Origin: a virus
Strand: one strand, 5' to 3'
Virus record (IMG/VR): IMGVR_UViG_3300042861_000129
Span: 1 to 27,413 of that record
Length of the DNA: 27,413 nt
Below the pieces are notes generated by a model, which saw only the letters and a list, made by a program, of their open reading frames with translations, was not told the origin of the DNA and made no database searches. Every line of letters starts with the position of its first letter. Within the stretch, counting starts at the first letter, position 1. Below are positions 5,946 to 16,282 of the stretch, piece by piece. Position numbers and translations under genes: made by a program.

Positions 5946-6563
5946 TTATTTATTTAATTTTTCAAAAATTGAATCAATAGTTGTGCGCGTTTTTCTTGGT
6001 GCTAATTTGAACAATTCAACCGGCTGCGCATTCTCCGGATTGTGTTGTATAGGTTTAGGCTCTACTTCTTCAGCTGCCAATTCAACCGGTGCCGCTTCTT
6101 CTGCAACTACTTCGGGTGTTTGCGCTGTGAATTTTGCCAATTCTGCTTTCAATGCATCGTTTTCAGCTTGCAATTTTTCCATTGAACTAAAGAACGTTTC
6201 TTTGATGATGCTTTCGATAGTTTTTTTAGGAGCTGCATCCGCTGCCATTTCTTCTTCGATTTTACCGCCGCCTTCTACTTCAACTTCCACTTCTGGAGCT
6301 TCTTCTTCTTCGATTTCTTTTTCTTTGATTTCAGCAATCATACCTTCTTCAGCTACGATCAAAATCATTCCGTTTTCTAAATCGTATTCTCCTACAGGAA
6401 CCGCAATACGCTGATCATCTTCTGCAACAATAAATACTTCGTTACCTGCTTCAAACGCATCTGCTTCTAAAATAGAAACGCCATCCGTTAGTTTCATTTG
6501 TTCGAGCTTTACTTCCATTCCGAGAAGCGCGCGAACTTTGTTTAAAATTTTGTTTTCGTTCAT
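5946..6563 (-). CDS. Probable capsid scaffolding protein
   Basis: This 205-residue protein is very acidic. A small N-terminal domain (about 1-78) is followed by a glutamate-rich low-complexity stretch (about 82-106), a coiled coil (about 120-145, SSMEKLQAENDALKAELAKF), an alanine/glutamate/proline linker and a basic C-terminal helix (RKTRTTIDSIFEKLNK). A coiled coil plus a basic C-terminal helix just before the capsid gene is the classic layout of phage scaffolds, whose C-terminus binds the capsid protein inside the procapsid. No protease motif is visible here; the neighbouring XkdF-like gene is the protease candidate. Confidence 0.65.
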   Translation of the reverse strand: MNENKILNKVRALLGMEVKLEQMKLTDGVSILEADAFEAGNEVFIVAEDDQRIAVPVGEYDLENGMILIVAEEGMIAEIKEKEIEEEEAPEVEVEVEGGGKIEEEMAADAAPKKTIESIIKETFFSSMEKLQAENDALKAELAKFTAQTPEVVAEEAAPVELAAEEVEPKPIQHNPENAQPVELFKLAPRKTRTTIDSIFEKLNK

Positions 6564-6576
6564 TTTTTTTTATTTA

Positions 6577-6948
6577 TTAAAATTTAGCAGCATTAATAGC
6601 CGCTGATAAACTTTTTAAATTCCCTAGTTCTCTGACTGCAGAGTCTTTAGATCTCCTTGCTTCAGTAGGAAGCCCTATGCCTAAGTCTTTCGCTTGTTTT
6701 TCTAAAATGTCCACTTCAGCAACTACTTTTTCAAATGCTGAAATCGTGTCGGATATTGCGTTTGAAGCATTAATTAACGCATCTTTTGCTTTTTTTACGT
6801 TAACTTGAGATTTGTCTCTCAATTTAAATGCGTTAACATCAAGTTTGTCTATTGATTGAACTGTAGCTAATTCAATGTTGTGTATTGATAACTCAGTTGC
6901 TTCATTTTTAATACCGGCAATCTTTGCCATTATGCTATTTCCGTTCAT
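6577..6948 (-). CDS. Helical head-region protein, function unknown
   Basis: This 123-residue protein is nearly all helix with heptad-like spacing (about 40-95, e.g. AKDALINASNAISDTISAFEKVV), followed by a short basic stretch and an alanine-rich end. ATG codons at residues 1 and 7 are both possible; the first sits after an AAAAA leader like those of its neighbours. It stands between the SEC-C peptide and the scaffold gene, in the place where scaffold or internal virion proteins are often found. It has no enzyme-like motif. It could be a second scaffold component or an internal head protein. Confidence 0.65.
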   Translation of the reverse strand: MNGNSIMAKIAGIKNEATELSIHNIELATVQSIDKLDVNAFKLRDKSQVNVKKAKDALINASNAISDTISAFEKVVAEVDILEKQAKDLGIGLPTEARRSKDSAVRELGNLKSLSAAINAAKF

Positions 6949-7002: not shown

Positions 7003-7188
7003 TTAGCTAACGCTAGTAATTGTTCTTGTCCCGTTGTTATCTGTAACTGTATATGTTCCTTGTTTCGATACAGAGCCTACGCCTTGATTTTGCAGGTCTC
7101 CGTTACAACATTCTTTTAAATACTTACCGTTACCGCACAGGCAACCGCGCTTACCGCCTCTTGGGCTTGATTTGCTTGGTGTTTTCAT
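7003..7188 (-). CDS. SEC-C motif zinc-binding peptide
   Basis: This 61-residue peptide has a basic N-terminus (MKTPSKSSPRGGKRG), then CLCGNGKYLKECC (about 16-28), which fits the SEC-C zinc motif CxCGxGxxxxxCC known from SecA and many small proteins. A threonine/asparagine-rich tail follows. The ATG overlaps the stop of the protease-like gene as ATGA. Zinc binding is inferred from the motif. Why a SEC-C peptide should sit in a head operon is unclear; it could bind nucleic acid or protein, or assist assembly. Confidence 0.75.
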   Translation of the reverse strand: MKTPSKSSPRGGKRGCLCGNGKYLKECCNGDLQNQGVGSVSKQGTYTVTDNNGTRTITSVS

Positions 7189-7784: not shown

Positions 7785-9737
7785 TTATAACGTTGCGTTT
7801 TTAATACGGTTCCTATCTAACGCCTGTGCAGAAGTTACCTCACCGCTGACAACATACGCCTGAATTGGTTGCTGCTGAATTTGCGCGAGCTGATTAATAC
7901 CTGAGTTACCTACAACATTGAAAGATGGCGCCTGTACTCCGGTTCCGCCTCCAGAAGATTCGCCGCCGCCAACTGATCCAGAAGGAGCTGCGCCGCCGCC
8001 TAAAGTTTTTAATGCTTTGGCAGTTGCCGCAATATTTGCCGCAATACCTATCCCTGTACTGATATTATTTAGTTTAGTTTCTACTGCTGCTAAAGCTGCT
8101 CCACCCGGAATAGCTGCGTACTTTAATTTTACTGCAGCGTTTGCTGCTTTGTTAGATATAATCATTTTAGCAATACCAATAGCGCTCTCAGCAACCAATG
8201 CCGCCTTCTGCAATCCTTTTTGTTTTTCGAATAAGCTGGCAATTAACTGCAGGCCCTGTGAAGCTACATCTAACTGCTGCATCTGAATTGCAATAATAGC
8301 TTCTGACTTTACTTTTTCGTATTCTACTAATTTATCGTCGCTTTCTTTTTTCTTTCGCTGTTGCTCTTTTAAAAGCTGATCTTCTAACTGCGCCTGCTGA
8401 ATATCCAAAGCCTGTTTGGTAGTATTATATTCAATCTCTGCTTCAAGCCTTGCCGCCGTTCCCTCTTTATGTATATCAATTTGCTCTTGAAGTCTTGCTA
8501 ATTGCAATTCTTTTTCCTGCCCAGAAATATCAATTAGCGTTTGTAGTTTTTGTTCTTCGTCTTTTATAAATTCAGCAGTAGCTTTGTTTTTTTCAATTGC
8601 TAAAGTAGTTTCGCTTTCGGTTCGTGTTTTGGTAAGCTCGTCAGCTTCACGCTGCAGCGCAAGATCATTTGCTAACTGCTCAGATCGCAAGCCTTCAATT
8701 TGAGCTAATACCCCCTGCTTGTTTGCTTGGGCATCTAATAGCGCAACTTGGTTTTCTGTATTTTTGTTTTTATCGTATTCTAACTGAGCAGCTTGAATTT
8801 GTAAAGTTGCCTGAGCTAGCATTGCTTTCTCTTGATCGTCTAAAACATTTTTAAGATCTTCATTAGCCTTCATTCTTTCGCTAATGGAATTGCGTTCTTC
8901 ATCGCGAACTTGGCGTAATTTCTCTGCTGCCCTGTCGTACTTTTCAATTAATACGCCTTGAGCTGCCGCAGCAACTTGAGCTGCGTTTCTTGCATCTACT
9001 AATGCGCTTGCTTGCTCAATAGCTCCTGAAATAGATATCTTGCTGATTTGTTCAACACCCTTAACGCCTAGCGTAACCATTTCTCCAACGGCTTCGCCAA
9101 AGTTTTCGTAGATATCTTTACCTGACTTCATAAAGTCCTTACCTACTTGGTCAATATCTTTTTGAGTTTCTTTAATATTCTTACGGAGTTCCTTTATGGT
9201 CTTCGGGTCTTTGTCTCCCAAGAAAGATTTTTCCCAAGCTAACTGCAATTCTTGAACGCCTAATTTTATTCCATAGAAAGAAAGTTTTAGCGGAGTTAAT
9301 GCAATATTTAATAAACCGCCTAATACTTTACCTAACGCGTTAAAACCTCCGGTTGCTTCATAAGCTGCCTTTACTGCCTGAGAAATTGCGCCAACAGTTT
9401 GATTAAAAAGAATTGATATTGTTTCTAATACTATAGAAAAACCGCGGGCAGTTTCCGAATTGCTTTCAAATGCAGATTTTAGACCAGCTAACGCGCCAAT
9501 GATTAAACCGATGCCCGAAGCCTTTAATGCGGTTCCGATACCCTTAGCTGCAGAACTTAATTTTTTAAAACCTCCGGAGGCGCCATCAGTAGCTGAATCA
9601 GTTTTTTTGATCTCTTTGTTTAACTGCTTAACCCTATCGGTTGAATCGTCTACGTTATTAGCAACTTTTTCGAAATCGTTTGCGACCTGATCAGCATTTG
9701 ATTCTACGTCTATCTTAATTTTTCTTGTCTCGGCCAT
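7785..9737 (-). CDS. Tail tape measure protein
   Basis: The 650-residue product has the typical tape measure layout. A charged N-terminal helix (VANDFEKVANNVDDSTDRVKQLNK) is followed by a hydrophobic glycine/alanine segment (about 60-150, ALKASGIGLIIGALAGLKSAF). Very long coiled-coil regions rich in Q, E, K and A (about 240-480) come next, then a second hydrophobic helix region (about 510-570) and a glycine/serine-rich tail. It sets tail length and is ejected with DNA. By the usual rule of about 1.5 angstrom per residue, 650 residues would give a tail near 100 nm, consistent with a siphovirus. It overlaps the 54-codon gene upstream by 23 bases. Confidence 0.9.
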   Translation of the reverse strand: MAETRKIKIDVESNADQVANDFEKVANNVDDSTDRVKQLNKEIKKTDSATDGASGGFKKLSSAAKGIGTALKASGIGLIIGALAGLKSAFESNSETARGFSIVLETISILFNQTVGAISQAVKAAYEATGGFNALGKVLGGLLNIALTPLKLSFYGIKLGVQELQLAWEKSFLGDKDPKTIKELRKNIKETQKDIDQVGKDFMKSGKDIYENFGEAVGEMVTLGVKGVEQISKISISGAIEQASALVDARNAAQVAAAAQGVLIEKYDRAAEKLRQVRDEERNSISERMKANEDLKNVLDDQEKAMLAQATLQIQAAQLEYDKNKNTENQVALLDAQANKQGVLAQIEGLRSEQLANDLALQREADELTKTRTESETTLAIEKNKATAEFIKDEEQKLQTLIDISGQEKELQLARLQEQIDIHKEGTAARLEAEIEYNTTKQALDIQQAQLEDQLLKEQQRKKKESDDKLVEYEKVKSEAIIAIQMQQLDVASQGLQLIASLFEKQKGLQKAALVAESAIGIAKMIISNKAANAAVKLKYAAIPGGAALAAVETKLNNISTGIGIAANIAATAKALKTLGGGAAPSGSVGGGESSGGGTGVQAPSFNVVGNSGINQLAQIQQQPIQAYVVSGEVTSAQALDRNRIKNATL

Positions 9738-13192: not shown

Positions 13193-13731
13193 TATTTCTT
13201 AAGTATATTGTCAATTTGTTGATCAAATAGTTTTTCTGCATCCAGAGCGAAAGATTGCACTAACTCATCCGGAAGGTTTTTATAAGCAGCTTCAAAAGGT
13301 TTAGTAAAAAACATACTGGGCCTGATTCCTTTATTGTAAATTCCGCGAGCGATTAGAAACGCAGTTGATTCGTAGCTTAAAAACTTACCTGTCTTTTTAT
13401 CCTTGAATTGAAATCTGCGCTTTCGTACCCATTCTTTAATACCTTCAGTTAGTCCGCCTTTTTTTCCGGTACCTGATCCGAATTTAAACGGTGAGTTAGG
13501 AGCTTTTTCAGAACTAGATTTACCTTTGACGCCTAGATCTTGATAGGCGCCGTAATCTTCCATATAAAACTGCAGCGAGAAACTGTTAGGCATTGCTTTA
13601 ACATCTCCTTTAATGGAGTTATAAAGCTTCTTTGATACATTCCTATTCTTGTTTGTTAAATTGCGCTTAGAAACGCTAACAACGTGGTTACGGAATCTTT
13701 CAAGCGCCTTCTGTACCTCCTGCTTTTCCAT
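13192..13731 (-). CDS. HK97 gp10-like tail-completion/neck protein
   Basis: This 179-residue basic protein has an N-terminal helix, then SKKLYNSIKGDV and a strand followed by YGAYQDLGVKGK (about 61-72), matching the HK97 gp10 pattern (YAxxxExGT). Next come a glycine/serine-rich loop, a helical IKEWVRKRRFQF segment and AFLIARGIYNKGIRPSMFF (about 124-142), typical of the family (ar.I...G..p.pF). Gp10-like proteins lie at the head-tail interface. Linked by TAATG to both neighbours. Good family fit; precise location in the virion inferred. Confidence 0.8.
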   Translation of the reverse strand: MEKQEVQKALERFRNHVVSVSKRNLTNKNRNVSKKLYNSIKGDVKAMPNSFSLQFYMEDYGAYQDLGVKGKSSSEKAPNSPFKFGSGTGKKGGLTEGIKEWVRKRRFQFKDKKTGKFLSYESTAFLIARGIYNKGIRPSMFFTKPFEAAYKNLPDELVQSFALDAEKLFDQQIDNILKK

Positions 13732-14183
13732 TAGCAGATAGTCATTTCATTAGGTACCACTAAATCGAAAGTCATTGCCCAACCTGCAAGGTTATTCTCA
13801 AAGCGTTCAGCAAAAGGTTCTAACGTTACCGCTTCTTCAATCTGTACTTTCTGATCCCAAATGCTACCTGCCTTCATTAGTTTGTAGGCTCTGATCAATA
13901 CGGAATGCATTGCGTTTAAAGCATCCGTTTCATTATCCATACCATAAAACAGATCTGTATCGTTTTCCTTTGTTATGTCGACTATATCCATAGCCATAAT
14001 AGTAACATTGTAACGTATTACAAATTCCTCAGCAGTTGAACTGTTTACCATTATGTGAACTAACGGAAAGATTGTTTTCTTGTCCAGATCAATACCGAAT
14101 ATATCTCCCTGAGAAATTTGGTTTACTATTGGATCGCCATTAAAATGCAGGCGCAAAGTTTCTAATGTTTGGTAGTAGTTCAT
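13731..14183 (-). CDS. Tail terminator-like protein
   Basis: This 150-residue protein begins MNYYQTLETLRLHFNGDPIV, with IFGIDLDKKTIFPLVHIMVNSS (about 28-49), a strand-rich middle (VIRYNVTIMAMDIVDI) and a helix near LNAMHSVLIRAYKLM. The order helix, beta hairpin, helix and size suit tail terminator or neck proteins of the gpU/gp17 type, which cap the tail tube. It lies next to the gp10-like gene and right after the chaperone, where such genes are common. Its ATG overlaps the -1 frame stop of the chaperone as ATGA. The family is inferred, not recognised with certainty. Confidence 0.6.
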   Translation of the reverse strand: MNYYQTLETLRLHFNGDPIVNQISQGDIFGIDLDKKTIFPLVHIMVNSSTAEEFVIRYNVTIMAMDIVDITKENDTDLFYGMDNETDALNAMHSVLIRAYKLMKAGSIWDQKVQIEEAVTLEPFAERFENNLAGWAMTFDLVVPNEMTIC

Positions 14184-14943
14184 CGTCTTAGTTGGCGTTC
14201 AAAGATTCTTTTTTCAATTTCGTTTTTTTGGTGTTCAAACGTGAGATACGTGAGACATTTAAGTAGTCCGAGCTTGGTAACTTCATCGAATTTAGTAACG
14301 TCTCCCTTAGCGATTCCATATATACTTTGATACCATCCCCATTGTTTTGCAAATTGAGCTGTTTCGCTAAAGTCGTTGACAGGCTCGGATCCTTCTTGAT
14401 TTCCTTCTCCAAATAGTTCAGGGTAGCCGCTAGTAATTCGTTGCTTAAATTGTAAAAAAAAACCGATGCTGCTATACAAACATCAAGCGGAGCGTACTGC
14501 ATCAACTCCTGATATTCTTTTGTTCCGGAGTATTCCTGTATCTCGTACTTGTCTTTGATTCGTTTTTTGATAGGCCTGTACATTACTGCCATTGCCTTGT
14601 TAAAACTATCCCAGCTTTGCAAATGATTTTCTAAATCTACGTACTCGCCAAAAGTAATATCTTCAAGGTTAGGTATAAATCCAAACTCAATATCTCCAAT
14701 TTTAAAGGTCTGCTGAAATTTAGGCTTCTGTTCGAATAGCTGCGTGAAGTGCGCTACCATTTCGTTTAGTGAAGTAAGCTTTATTTTGGCTACATCAATC
14801 AACCGGATTCCGCAAAAGATTTCGATCATCTTCTGGGCTACAAATTCCTCATCGTTGGAACCTTCCTGTACTTTTAGGAAATCTACGTAATTCTTTAACG
14901 GAATTTCGTTTAATGAAGTAGGTACGTTTATTTGCAATTCCAT
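14180..14943 (-). CDS. Tail assembly chaperone, -1 frameshift product (GT-like)
   Basis: Shared residues 1-163 are followed, after a -1 slip at the T run (14462-14454), by 91 residues read from 14455 to the stop at 14180-14182, giving 254 residues. The -1 part contains QWGWYQSIYGIAKGDVTKFDEV and LGLLKCLTYLTFEHQKNEIE in two consecutive stretches, characteristic of the T domain of tail chaperones in Bacteroidetes phages. G and GT proteins bind the tape measure and recruit tail tube subunits. Codon third positions in this frame are A/T-biased like the rest of the phage. The stop is fused to the next start as ATGA. An ATG at 14479 exists but would waste the shared N-terminus. Confidence 0.7.
14188..14943 (-). 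CDS. Tail assembly chaperone, zero-frame product (G-like)
   Basis: The unshifted reading gives 251 residues. Residues 1-163 hold the chaperone-like body (ELQINVPTSLNEIPLKNYVDF at the start, IGDIEFGFIPNLEDITFGEYVDLENHL in mid-part). After the slip site it continues 88 residues (YNLSNELLAATLNYLEKE..., ending ISRLNTKKTKLKKESLNAN) to TAA at 14188-14190. In this part third positions are much richer in G/C than is usual for this phage, so this tail may be an overprinted frame rather than the conserved one. It is still open over the full overlap, so a stable long G form is possible. Confidence 0.65.
   Translation of the reverse strand: MELQINVPTSLNEIPLKNYVDFLKVQEGSNDEEFVAQKMIEIFCGIRLIDVAKIKLTSLNEMVAHFTQLFEQKPKFQQTFKIGDIEFGFIPNLEDITFGEYVDLENHLQSWDSFNKAMAVMYRPIKKRIKDKYEIQEYSGTKEYQELMQYAPLDVCIAASVFFYNLSNELLAATLNYLEKEIKKDPSLSTTLAKQLNLQNNGDGIKVYMESLRETLLNSMKLPSSDYLNVSRISRLNTKKTKLKKESLNAN
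14455..14461 (-). promoter_or_regulatory. -1 ribosomal frameshift slippery heptamer T_TTT_TTT
   Basis: Codons 161-163 of the chaperone read GTT TTT TTT within nine consecutive T residues (14462-14454). This gives a perfect X_XXY_YYZ slippery heptamer in the zero frame, followed by TAC. Slipping back one base joins the two chaperone frames exactly. The same nine-T run could also cause transcriptional slippage. I did not find a clear downstream stem by eye. Confidence 0.7.
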
Positions 14944-14954
14944 ATCTGTATAAC

Positions 14955-15122
14955 TTATTTTTTGTTTTGTTGTTGCACGTAATTAAATGCTTCCCTGAGC
15001 ATTGTTAAATGTTCCCTTAATCTGTTAGGGTTATTGAAAACTATTTTAATCCGTCTTCCTGTATGCTTCTGTATATAAAGCTCTACCAAATGGCACATTG
15101 CTTCTGTATAGTTCTCTGACAT
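14955..15122 (-). CDS. 55-residue peptide between terminase and tail chaperone
   Basis: The ATG at 15122 is fused to the terminase stop as TAATG, and the frame runs 55 codons to TAA at 14955-14957, ending 11 bases before the chaperone start. The product (MSENYTEAMCHLVELYIQKH...) is helical and basic, with a short TGRRIKIVFNNPNRL strand-loop in the middle and a glutamine/lysine-rich end. No family is recognised. The start context and the way it fills the gap support a real gene. Confidence 0.65.
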   Translation of the reverse strand: MSENYTEAMCHLVELYIQKHTGRRIKIVFNNPNRLREHLTMLREAFNYVQQQNKK

Positions 15123-16282
15123 TAGCGTATGTTATAGTTACCGTAGTTTTTCTTTAAGCCGAGCGTTTCCATCTCGTGGTATCTCAGCGCATCAATTCCG
15201 TGATCCAATCCGCCTGCAGGATTTCTACCTCTGTTTCCTGATCTGTCAACATCCCAGCAGTAAGCGCGAAGCTCTTTGATTAGGTTGGTACTTTGCTTTG
15301 TTACTAGGTATTCCTGTTGCTGCATAACATCAATACCGTAGTTAATTGAATCCTTGCCTTTCGTTACTCCTTTGATCGTCTTTCCGTAGCGTTTGATCTC
15401 GTCAATTGATTTCGGCTCTGAGCTATCGGCATAAATAATAACGCCTGACGGAAGTACCTTTGCAATATCAGAATTTAACATCCCTGTACGGTAAACTAAT
15501 TCGTTTACTATTCGTTTTCCGTTCCAGTTATAGATCTCTATCGCTGCCGTTGGGTCATTAGTATACCCGAAGTCTAAGCCTATGCCTACCAATCGAGCAT
15601 CTTCCGGAACCTTATCAATCTCTTTCCAATTCTCAAAGATTACGCCTTCAAGCATTCCTACTTCGCCTAAACCATAAACTCGCCACCAATTTGCCCAATA
15701 ATTAGAAGTATCTGCTTTGTCGCGATTCTTCTCAATTTGTGTGACAATACTCTGATCTAACGCCTCGTTATCTTTGTACGTTAAGATGATAAAATCAGCA
15801 TCAGGTTCGTGTTTTAATTCCTTATGTACCCAGAACTCATTTGCTGGGTTGAAATCTAAATAGATCTCGCGCTTAGTACGTATAGCTAGCTCATTGTAAG
15901 ATTCAAACGTAATATTGTTACATTCGTTTATATACAGAACGTCGCGCCTTGCGCCTCGCAATTTGCTGGAGTCATCAGCAGAAAAGAACTCAATGTAAGA
16001 TCCGTTTTTAAACGTGTAGGTTAACAGTGATTTGTTGAACTGCGATTCTACGTACCGGTTAGTCCAGCGCATAATTTTCAAGAAATCTTTAAGGGCTCCC
16101 CTACGCAAATGCGGTATACTTTCAGCAACTACGCTGATCTCTACGTTAGGTTGTTTGATTGCTCGGTCTATAAGGATTGGCAATATACCAAAAGTCTTGC
16201 CTGCTGAGGTTCCTCCTTGTATAATCTTTATCCGTTTTTTTAACGAAAGGATTTTGTTAATTGACGTCGTCCGTTTGAACAT
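15122..16282 (-). CDS. terL: Terminase large subunit
   Basis: The 386-residue packaging motor and nuclease shows all expected motifs. Walker A is GGTSAGKT (23-30) and Walker B is VLYINE (115-120), the glutamate being catalytic. The C-terminal RNase-H-like nuclease has acidic residues at D237 (GLDFGYTNDP), D286 (IYADSS) and D360/D364 (GLDHGIDALRYHEM). It belongs to the PBSX/Terminase_3 type. It cuts concatemers and pumps DNA through the portal. The gene overlaps the small subunit by 26 bases. The ATG at 16282 is the only early start that keeps the full ATPase domain. Confidence 0.95.
   Translation of the reverse strand: MFKRTTSINKILSLKKRIKIIQGGTSAGKTFGILPILIDRAIKQPNVEISVVAESIPHLRRGALKDFLKIMRWTNRYVESQFNKSLLTYTFKNGSYIEFFSADDSSKLRGARRDVLYINECNNITFESYNELAIRTKREIYLDFNPANEFWVHKELKHEPDADFIILTYKDNEALDQSIVTQIEKNRDKADTSNYWANWWRVYGLGEVGMLEGVIFENWKEIDKVPEDARLVGIGLDFGYTNDPTAAIEIYNWNGKRIVNELVYRTGMLNSDIAKVLPSGVIIYADSSEPKSIDEIKRYGKTIKGVTKGKDSINYGIDVMQQQEYLVTKQSTNLIKELRAYCWDVDRSGNRGRNPAGGLDHGIDALRYHEMETLGLKKNYGNYNIR

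Follow-up and report, generated by a model that had tools for sequence, protein, structure and literature searches.

The gene on the minus strand at positions 14943→14180 of the stretch analysed here (the window, 27,413 nucleotides, positions 1 to 27,413 of the viral record IMGVR_UViG_3300042861_000129) is very probably a frame-switch gene, in which a shared N-terminal part is followed by two alternative C-terminal tails encoded by the same DNA, both of them under selection. At the switch the minus strand reads ...GCA TCG GTT TTT TTT TAC AAT..., and the heptamer T_TTT_TTT at 14461-14455, part of a run of nine T, lies exactly where an earlier note on this DNA had placed it, at the junction of two long open frames (Table 1). 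Reading along the minus strand gives a zero-frame product of 251 aa, with its stop codon at 14190-14188, and a -1 fusion product of 254 aa, with its stop codon at 14182-14180, which are the lengths that the note had given. The note was equally right that the zero frame stops five bases earlier and that the -1 frame is fused to the next gene by an ATGA: exactly five bases separate the two stop codons, the frame ends lie 8 nt apart, and the -1 stop overlaps the ATG of the next gene (14183) in an arrangement present in 102 of 102 relatives checked. About 265 bases of the window's gene thereby encode both tails. The contrast in third-position composition between the tails also holds, with G+C at 0.42 in the shared part, higher in the zero-frame tail (0.53) and lower in the -1 tail (0.30); taken alone, this contrast says only that the -1 frame carries the usual codon bias.

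Table 1. Features of the slip-site gene and its neighbourhood in the window.
Feature	Position	Strand	Evidence and remarks
Large terminase subunit, upstream neighbour	15122..16282	-	Pfam PF04466 and PF17288
N-terminal part common to the two products, about 160 residues	14463..14943	-	phrog_32199 match; AF2 model
T9 slippery run	14454..14462	-	In-phase heptamer T_TTT_TTT at 14461-14455; T9 in 170/173 listed relatives
Third (+1) frame stop TAA	14445..14447	-	Two codons past T9; same place in 171/173 listed relatives
Zero-frame tail, 88 codons and stop	14188..14454	-	Helices to about residue 219, then predicted disorder; openness and selection tests
-1 frame tail, T-like helical domain, 91 codons and stop	14180..14455	-	Without a conserved start of its own
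Next gene, single-coding control for the synonymous rate	13731..14183	-	ATGA overlap with the -1 stop
Probable tape-measure protein	7785..9737	-	Weak PHROG match phrog_1538, E 0.0017; several genes from the slip-site gene

An independent start for the T-like frame was considered and ruled out, as no start codon is conserved across the 172 listed relatives: none of ATG, GTG or TTG occurs in the -1 frame in 66 of them, and ATG occurs in just 8. The -1 frame is therefore reachable only through a frame switch that yields the fusion. Elsewhere in the window, another nine-base homopolymer (A9 on the coding strand, 6563-6571) is intergenic and lies just upstream of the gene starting at 6563, and a 61-aa ORF at 7003-7188, between the gene ending at 7185 and the gene starting at 6948, carries a cysteine-rich CxCGxGxxxxxCC motif that by eye is SEC-C-like.

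Relatives of the slip-site gene were gathered by scans of viral contigs using as queries the part upstream of the run, the -1 tail, the Nonlabens protein and a distant relative; the set also includes one Flavobacterium MAG locus. At least 173 distinct relatives were recovered, and the family, a large and diverse one of viruses infecting aquatic Flavobacteria, is larger than this sample. Among the matches listed, the run is T9 throughout except for three sequences with T10, and 172 of 173 need a -1 step to enter the frame of the T-like tail, which is open for 80-92 codons in these 172. The sole exception (L024) has a T10 that fuses the two frames permanently, and represents either an error or a real constitutive-fusion phage. 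A scan with the upstream part alone, a query that excludes the run and both tails, gave the same picture, so that the conservation is not an artefact of how the relatives were found. When the collection of phage records was searched for relatives, only Nonlabens phages P12024L (NC_018272) and P12024S (NC_018271) were found, and both the T9 and the -1 frame are present in these isolated, sequenced phages, which therefore argues against an assembly artefact. Homopolymer indels are common errors and L024 does carry a T10 with a fused frame, yet explaining the T9 by faulty sequencing or assembly, or by a frameshift in a pseudogene, is hardly credible in the face of an identical run in 170 listed distinct genes from many metagenomes; an error in the reads or the assembly is refuted by the two isolate genomes.

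Two further observations concern the bases just downstream of the run. About 20 bases right after it (14453-14430 in the window; ATCATTTAGGGAACGACTTA type) are nearly identical in DNA among relatives L164-L226, even where the phage proteins are less than 35% identical. Two codons past the T9 the third frame is closed, so that slips in the other direction would end at once. Conservation of this third-frame stop was rejected as a separate line of evidence, because a Leu in frame 0 together with Phe-Lys/Arg in frame -1 dictates the stop and so keeps it in place.

The zero-frame tail is open for 54-88 codons in 168 of the 172 listed relatives, which form 20 protein clusters below 65% identity, and a zero-frame stop falls within the first 50 codons in just 4 of the 172. 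If the -1 protein is held fixed and its codons are redrawn from those of the window's genes, the zero frame of the window's tail should contain about 5 stops, and none is found (P(open) < 0.001). Shuffling the synonymous codons within the gene, a procedure that retains whatever bias dual coding has produced, gives 2.6 expected stops and P about 0.004-0.008. Summed over the 20 clusters, the ORF-length P values reach a log10 P of about -44, an index and not a strict probability since the clusters share ancestry. These ORF-length P values are the proper test, as the corresponding count of zero stops observed against 67 expected is partly circular, the region ending at its first stop. Two controls lie at expectation, namely the third frame, with 143 stops where 132 are expected, and the zero frame past its own stop, with 57 where 53 are expected, and the deficit of stops is hence specific to the zero frame and ends at its own stop. 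Chance openness of the zero frame is excluded.

Selection on both frames was assessed from pairs of moderate divergence, in which amino-acid divergence is similar between the overlap and its flanks. The synonymous-substitution comparison among relatives that the earlier note had proposed gives a -1 frame rate in the overlap that is 0.31-0.47 of that in flanking coding sequence: 0.47 (95% bootstrap 0.34-0.62) and 0.41 (0.32-0.51) relative to the shared upstream part, and 0.31 and 0.38 relative to the next gene. Splitting the changes by their effect in both frames shows that doubly silent changes are fastest and changes silent in one frame slow (dSN/dSS 0.06-0.22 for silent in -1 only versus both), with no stop gained between close pairs; as dSN/dSS is based on about 100 weighted doubly silent sites, a small number, the comparison with flanking synonymous rates is the main evidence for selection. 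The depression of synonymous change extends along the whole overlap, peaks directly past the run and fades in the 3' direction, a gradient that fits a strongly constrained core followed by a weakly constrained extension. On these comparative grounds, the overlap is truly dual-coding, with both frames open beyond chance and both under purifying selection.

An alternative would be that only the -1 tail is functional and that the zero frame stays open through composition or a constraint at the RNA level. The variable length of the zero-frame tail (15-88 codons), its near absence in the Nonlabens clade and the fact that the first 11 codons past the run, which could form an RNA signal, are the most conserved at silent sites would all suit this explanation. 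We consider it very improbable, as it leaves unexplained why none of the roughly 5 stops expected in the window's tail is found, why the stop deficit is limited to the zero frame and why silent change is depressed over the entire overlap.

The two selected tails also bear on the age of the arrangement. Outside the Nonlabens clade, in which the zero-frame tail has 15-24 codons, its lengths fall into classes of 54, 58-63, 66-73, 78-83 and 86-88 codons, and a core of 54-61 codons occurs in every non-Nonlabens lineage among the matches listed, down to about 25-35% identity. In the protein tree, which is midpoint-rooted and whose root is an assumption, the 54-61 codon class is spread over all other deep branches, with the longer classes nested around the window's clade. 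The last ~27 zero-frame codons are confined to that clade and are predicted to be disordered. Of the earlier suggestion that the zero-frame extension is overprinted and possibly newly functional, the overprinting and the function are borne out by the selection analysis, whereas the novelty is not: dual coding is old and conserved, and only the last ~27 codons may be a recent addition. Relatives with one frame closed soon after the T run, which would have spoken against a functional second tail, are confined to the small clade of Nonlabens phages, and the other 168 listed keep the frame open.

The predicted structures agree with this division. In the AF2 model the shared N part mostly has a pLDDT of 70-92, and in the zero-frame product the slip site lies inside a helix (153-183) that is followed by helices at 186-195 and 201-219 and by disorder after about residue 222, in keeping with the gradient in synonymous change. 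Helices are predicted for the -1 tail as well, with modest confidence. The N part matches PHROG phrog_32199, labelled function unknown (E 5e-17, residues 4-176), as do all six distant relatives tested. Searches of Pfam, PHROG and PDB assigned a named function to neither tail.

As to what slips on the run, RNA polymerase may add one U on the T9 in a fraction of the mRNAs, a U10 mRNA then giving the -1 product while U8 or U11 mRNAs would stop within two codons; we give this about an even chance. In many bacteria, nine is the length at which selection acts against slippage-prone A/T runs, and runs of 9T are exploited for expression (PMC1088944); homopolymer insertions occur only in A/T runs, are mostly of one nucleotide and rise steeply with run length (PMC5574713). 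The window's run is an A/T run of about nine, conserved in length and atypical for coding sequence, as described for transcriptional slippage (PMC1088944). A single extra U yields exactly the -1 frame, run length is constant at nine, and the T9 lacks flanking RNA structure (mean z about 0). Position 8 of the run is T in all 172 listed relatives (P about 0.002 from Phe codon use); a C there would be silent in both proteins and acceptable to the ribosomal heptamer rule. T runs of at least 8 are avoided elsewhere in the coding sequence of these genomes (6 seen against 28 expected), as are runs of at least 9 (1 against 9.6), but this avoidance may reflect replication slippage, and the slip propensity of the flavobacterial polymerase is assumed. 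A run of nine A/T is shared with Thermus dnaX, Shigella mxiE, in which one inserted nucleotide at a U run joins two frames, and IS elements (PMC1088944). The off-frame products of Thermus dnaX terminate early, like the third frame here. Unlike in these 9A/9T genes (PMC1088944), both alternative tails of the window's gene are long and conserved, and its polymerase slippage is putative.

Classical -1 ribosomal frameshifting on U_UUU_UUU comes just short of even odds in our assessment. All listed relatives except L024 have the heptamer in the phase that a -1 slip requires, E. coli shifts efficiently on several heptamer classes that include H_HHU_UUY (PMC4066793), and ribosomal frameshifting is the rule in the well-studied tail chaperones (PMC5009743), which also counts against the polymerase. 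Against the ribosome, a stem-loop or other flanking structure was looked for at the slip site and none was detected, and frameshifting leaves the T at position 8 and the constant length of nine unexplained. We place the polymerase slightly ahead of the ribosome, with four local signs pointing to it and none of them decisive. The programmed frame switch joining two long frames under purifying selection that the earlier note had proposed is upheld, with ribosomal slippage as just one of two possible mechanisms.

In tail chaperones of the lambda G/GT type, the G part binds the tape measure and the T part binds the tail tube. Lambda G/GT and its widespread counterparts have in common with the window's gene a single gene, a slippery site and a -1 fusion with a T-like C-terminal domain, as well as a location among late structural genes (PMC5009743). 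This anatomy, by which one gene yields a short product and a fused one, is predicted for 172 listed relatives and makes the earlier label of tail chaperone plausible, whereas neither the location of the gene nor the searches with profile HMMs and folds confirm that it belongs to this family. The gene adjoins the terminase and does not lie between the major tail protein or tail tube gene and the tape measure gene. Searches of the slip-site products in Pfam, against PDB sequences and against PDB folds gave no match to known chaperones, and BFVD gave one weak match to an annotated 'tail assembly chaperone' (E 0.43). In contrast to lambda, where the site is near the 3' end of G, the window's slip site lies about 90 codons before the zero-frame stop (88 codons remain; among the matches listed it is nearer only in the Nonlabens clade), the T9 is without a detected RNA structure, and the long dual-coding overlap is under selection in both frames. 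In Nonlabens P12024L/S, gp40 (phrog_32199) shares the homologous N part, the same T9 and a -1 frame with a T-like tail, and differs from the window's gene in its zero-frame tail of just 24 codons. The gp41 annotated after it (NC_018272 24473-24640) overlaps the -1 T-like frame. A 191-aa protein of Flavobacterium phage 6H (NC_021867 10352-10927) has weak structural similarity and ends in FFYSTR, and a similar slip site, followed by a short tail in the zero frame, may lie at the end of its gene.

Taken together, the gene resembles a lambda-type G/GT tail chaperone, and action as a G/GT-like pair is the most likely reading and one that we hold probable, but with an unslipped form that seems to have a real tail domain. 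We infer that both proteins are made and that they serve at a fixed ratio as chaperones of tail assembly, as we infer which machine slips. Unslipped decoding would give a long G-like protein whose tail prolongs the helix through the slip site and adds two helices. A slip on the T9, either by the ribosome moving to -1 or by RNA polymerase adding one extra U, would shift a fraction of the product into the -1 frame, giving a GT-like protein that ends in the helical T-like domain, while slips into the third frame would be stopped within two codons. The more specific proposal, in which slippage of RNA polymerase on the exactly conserved T9, and not of the ribosome, sets the ratio in a tail-chaperone-like gene with two conserved tails, the outcomes being a long G tail, a T tail or an immediate stop, is a tentative one that we rate a little under evens.

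In tailed phages it is uncommon for a long stretch to code in two frames of the same strand with selection demonstrable on each. Overlaps with a +1 shift have a median length of 14 nt in virus reference genomes (PMC8903798), and the present overlap is kept open over 54 to 88 codons, as against a few codons in classic examples. Annotation misses the fusion, as in the P12024L/S records, where it is given as separate short ORFs. The occurrence of one architecture across a large and diverse family, in well over a hundred distinct genes, provides deep comparative power and opens a clean way to test whether a phage can set an assembly ratio through polymerase slippage. It also suggests that the unslipped protein carries its own structured tail, in which case the switch would choose between two C-terminal domains and not merely add one.
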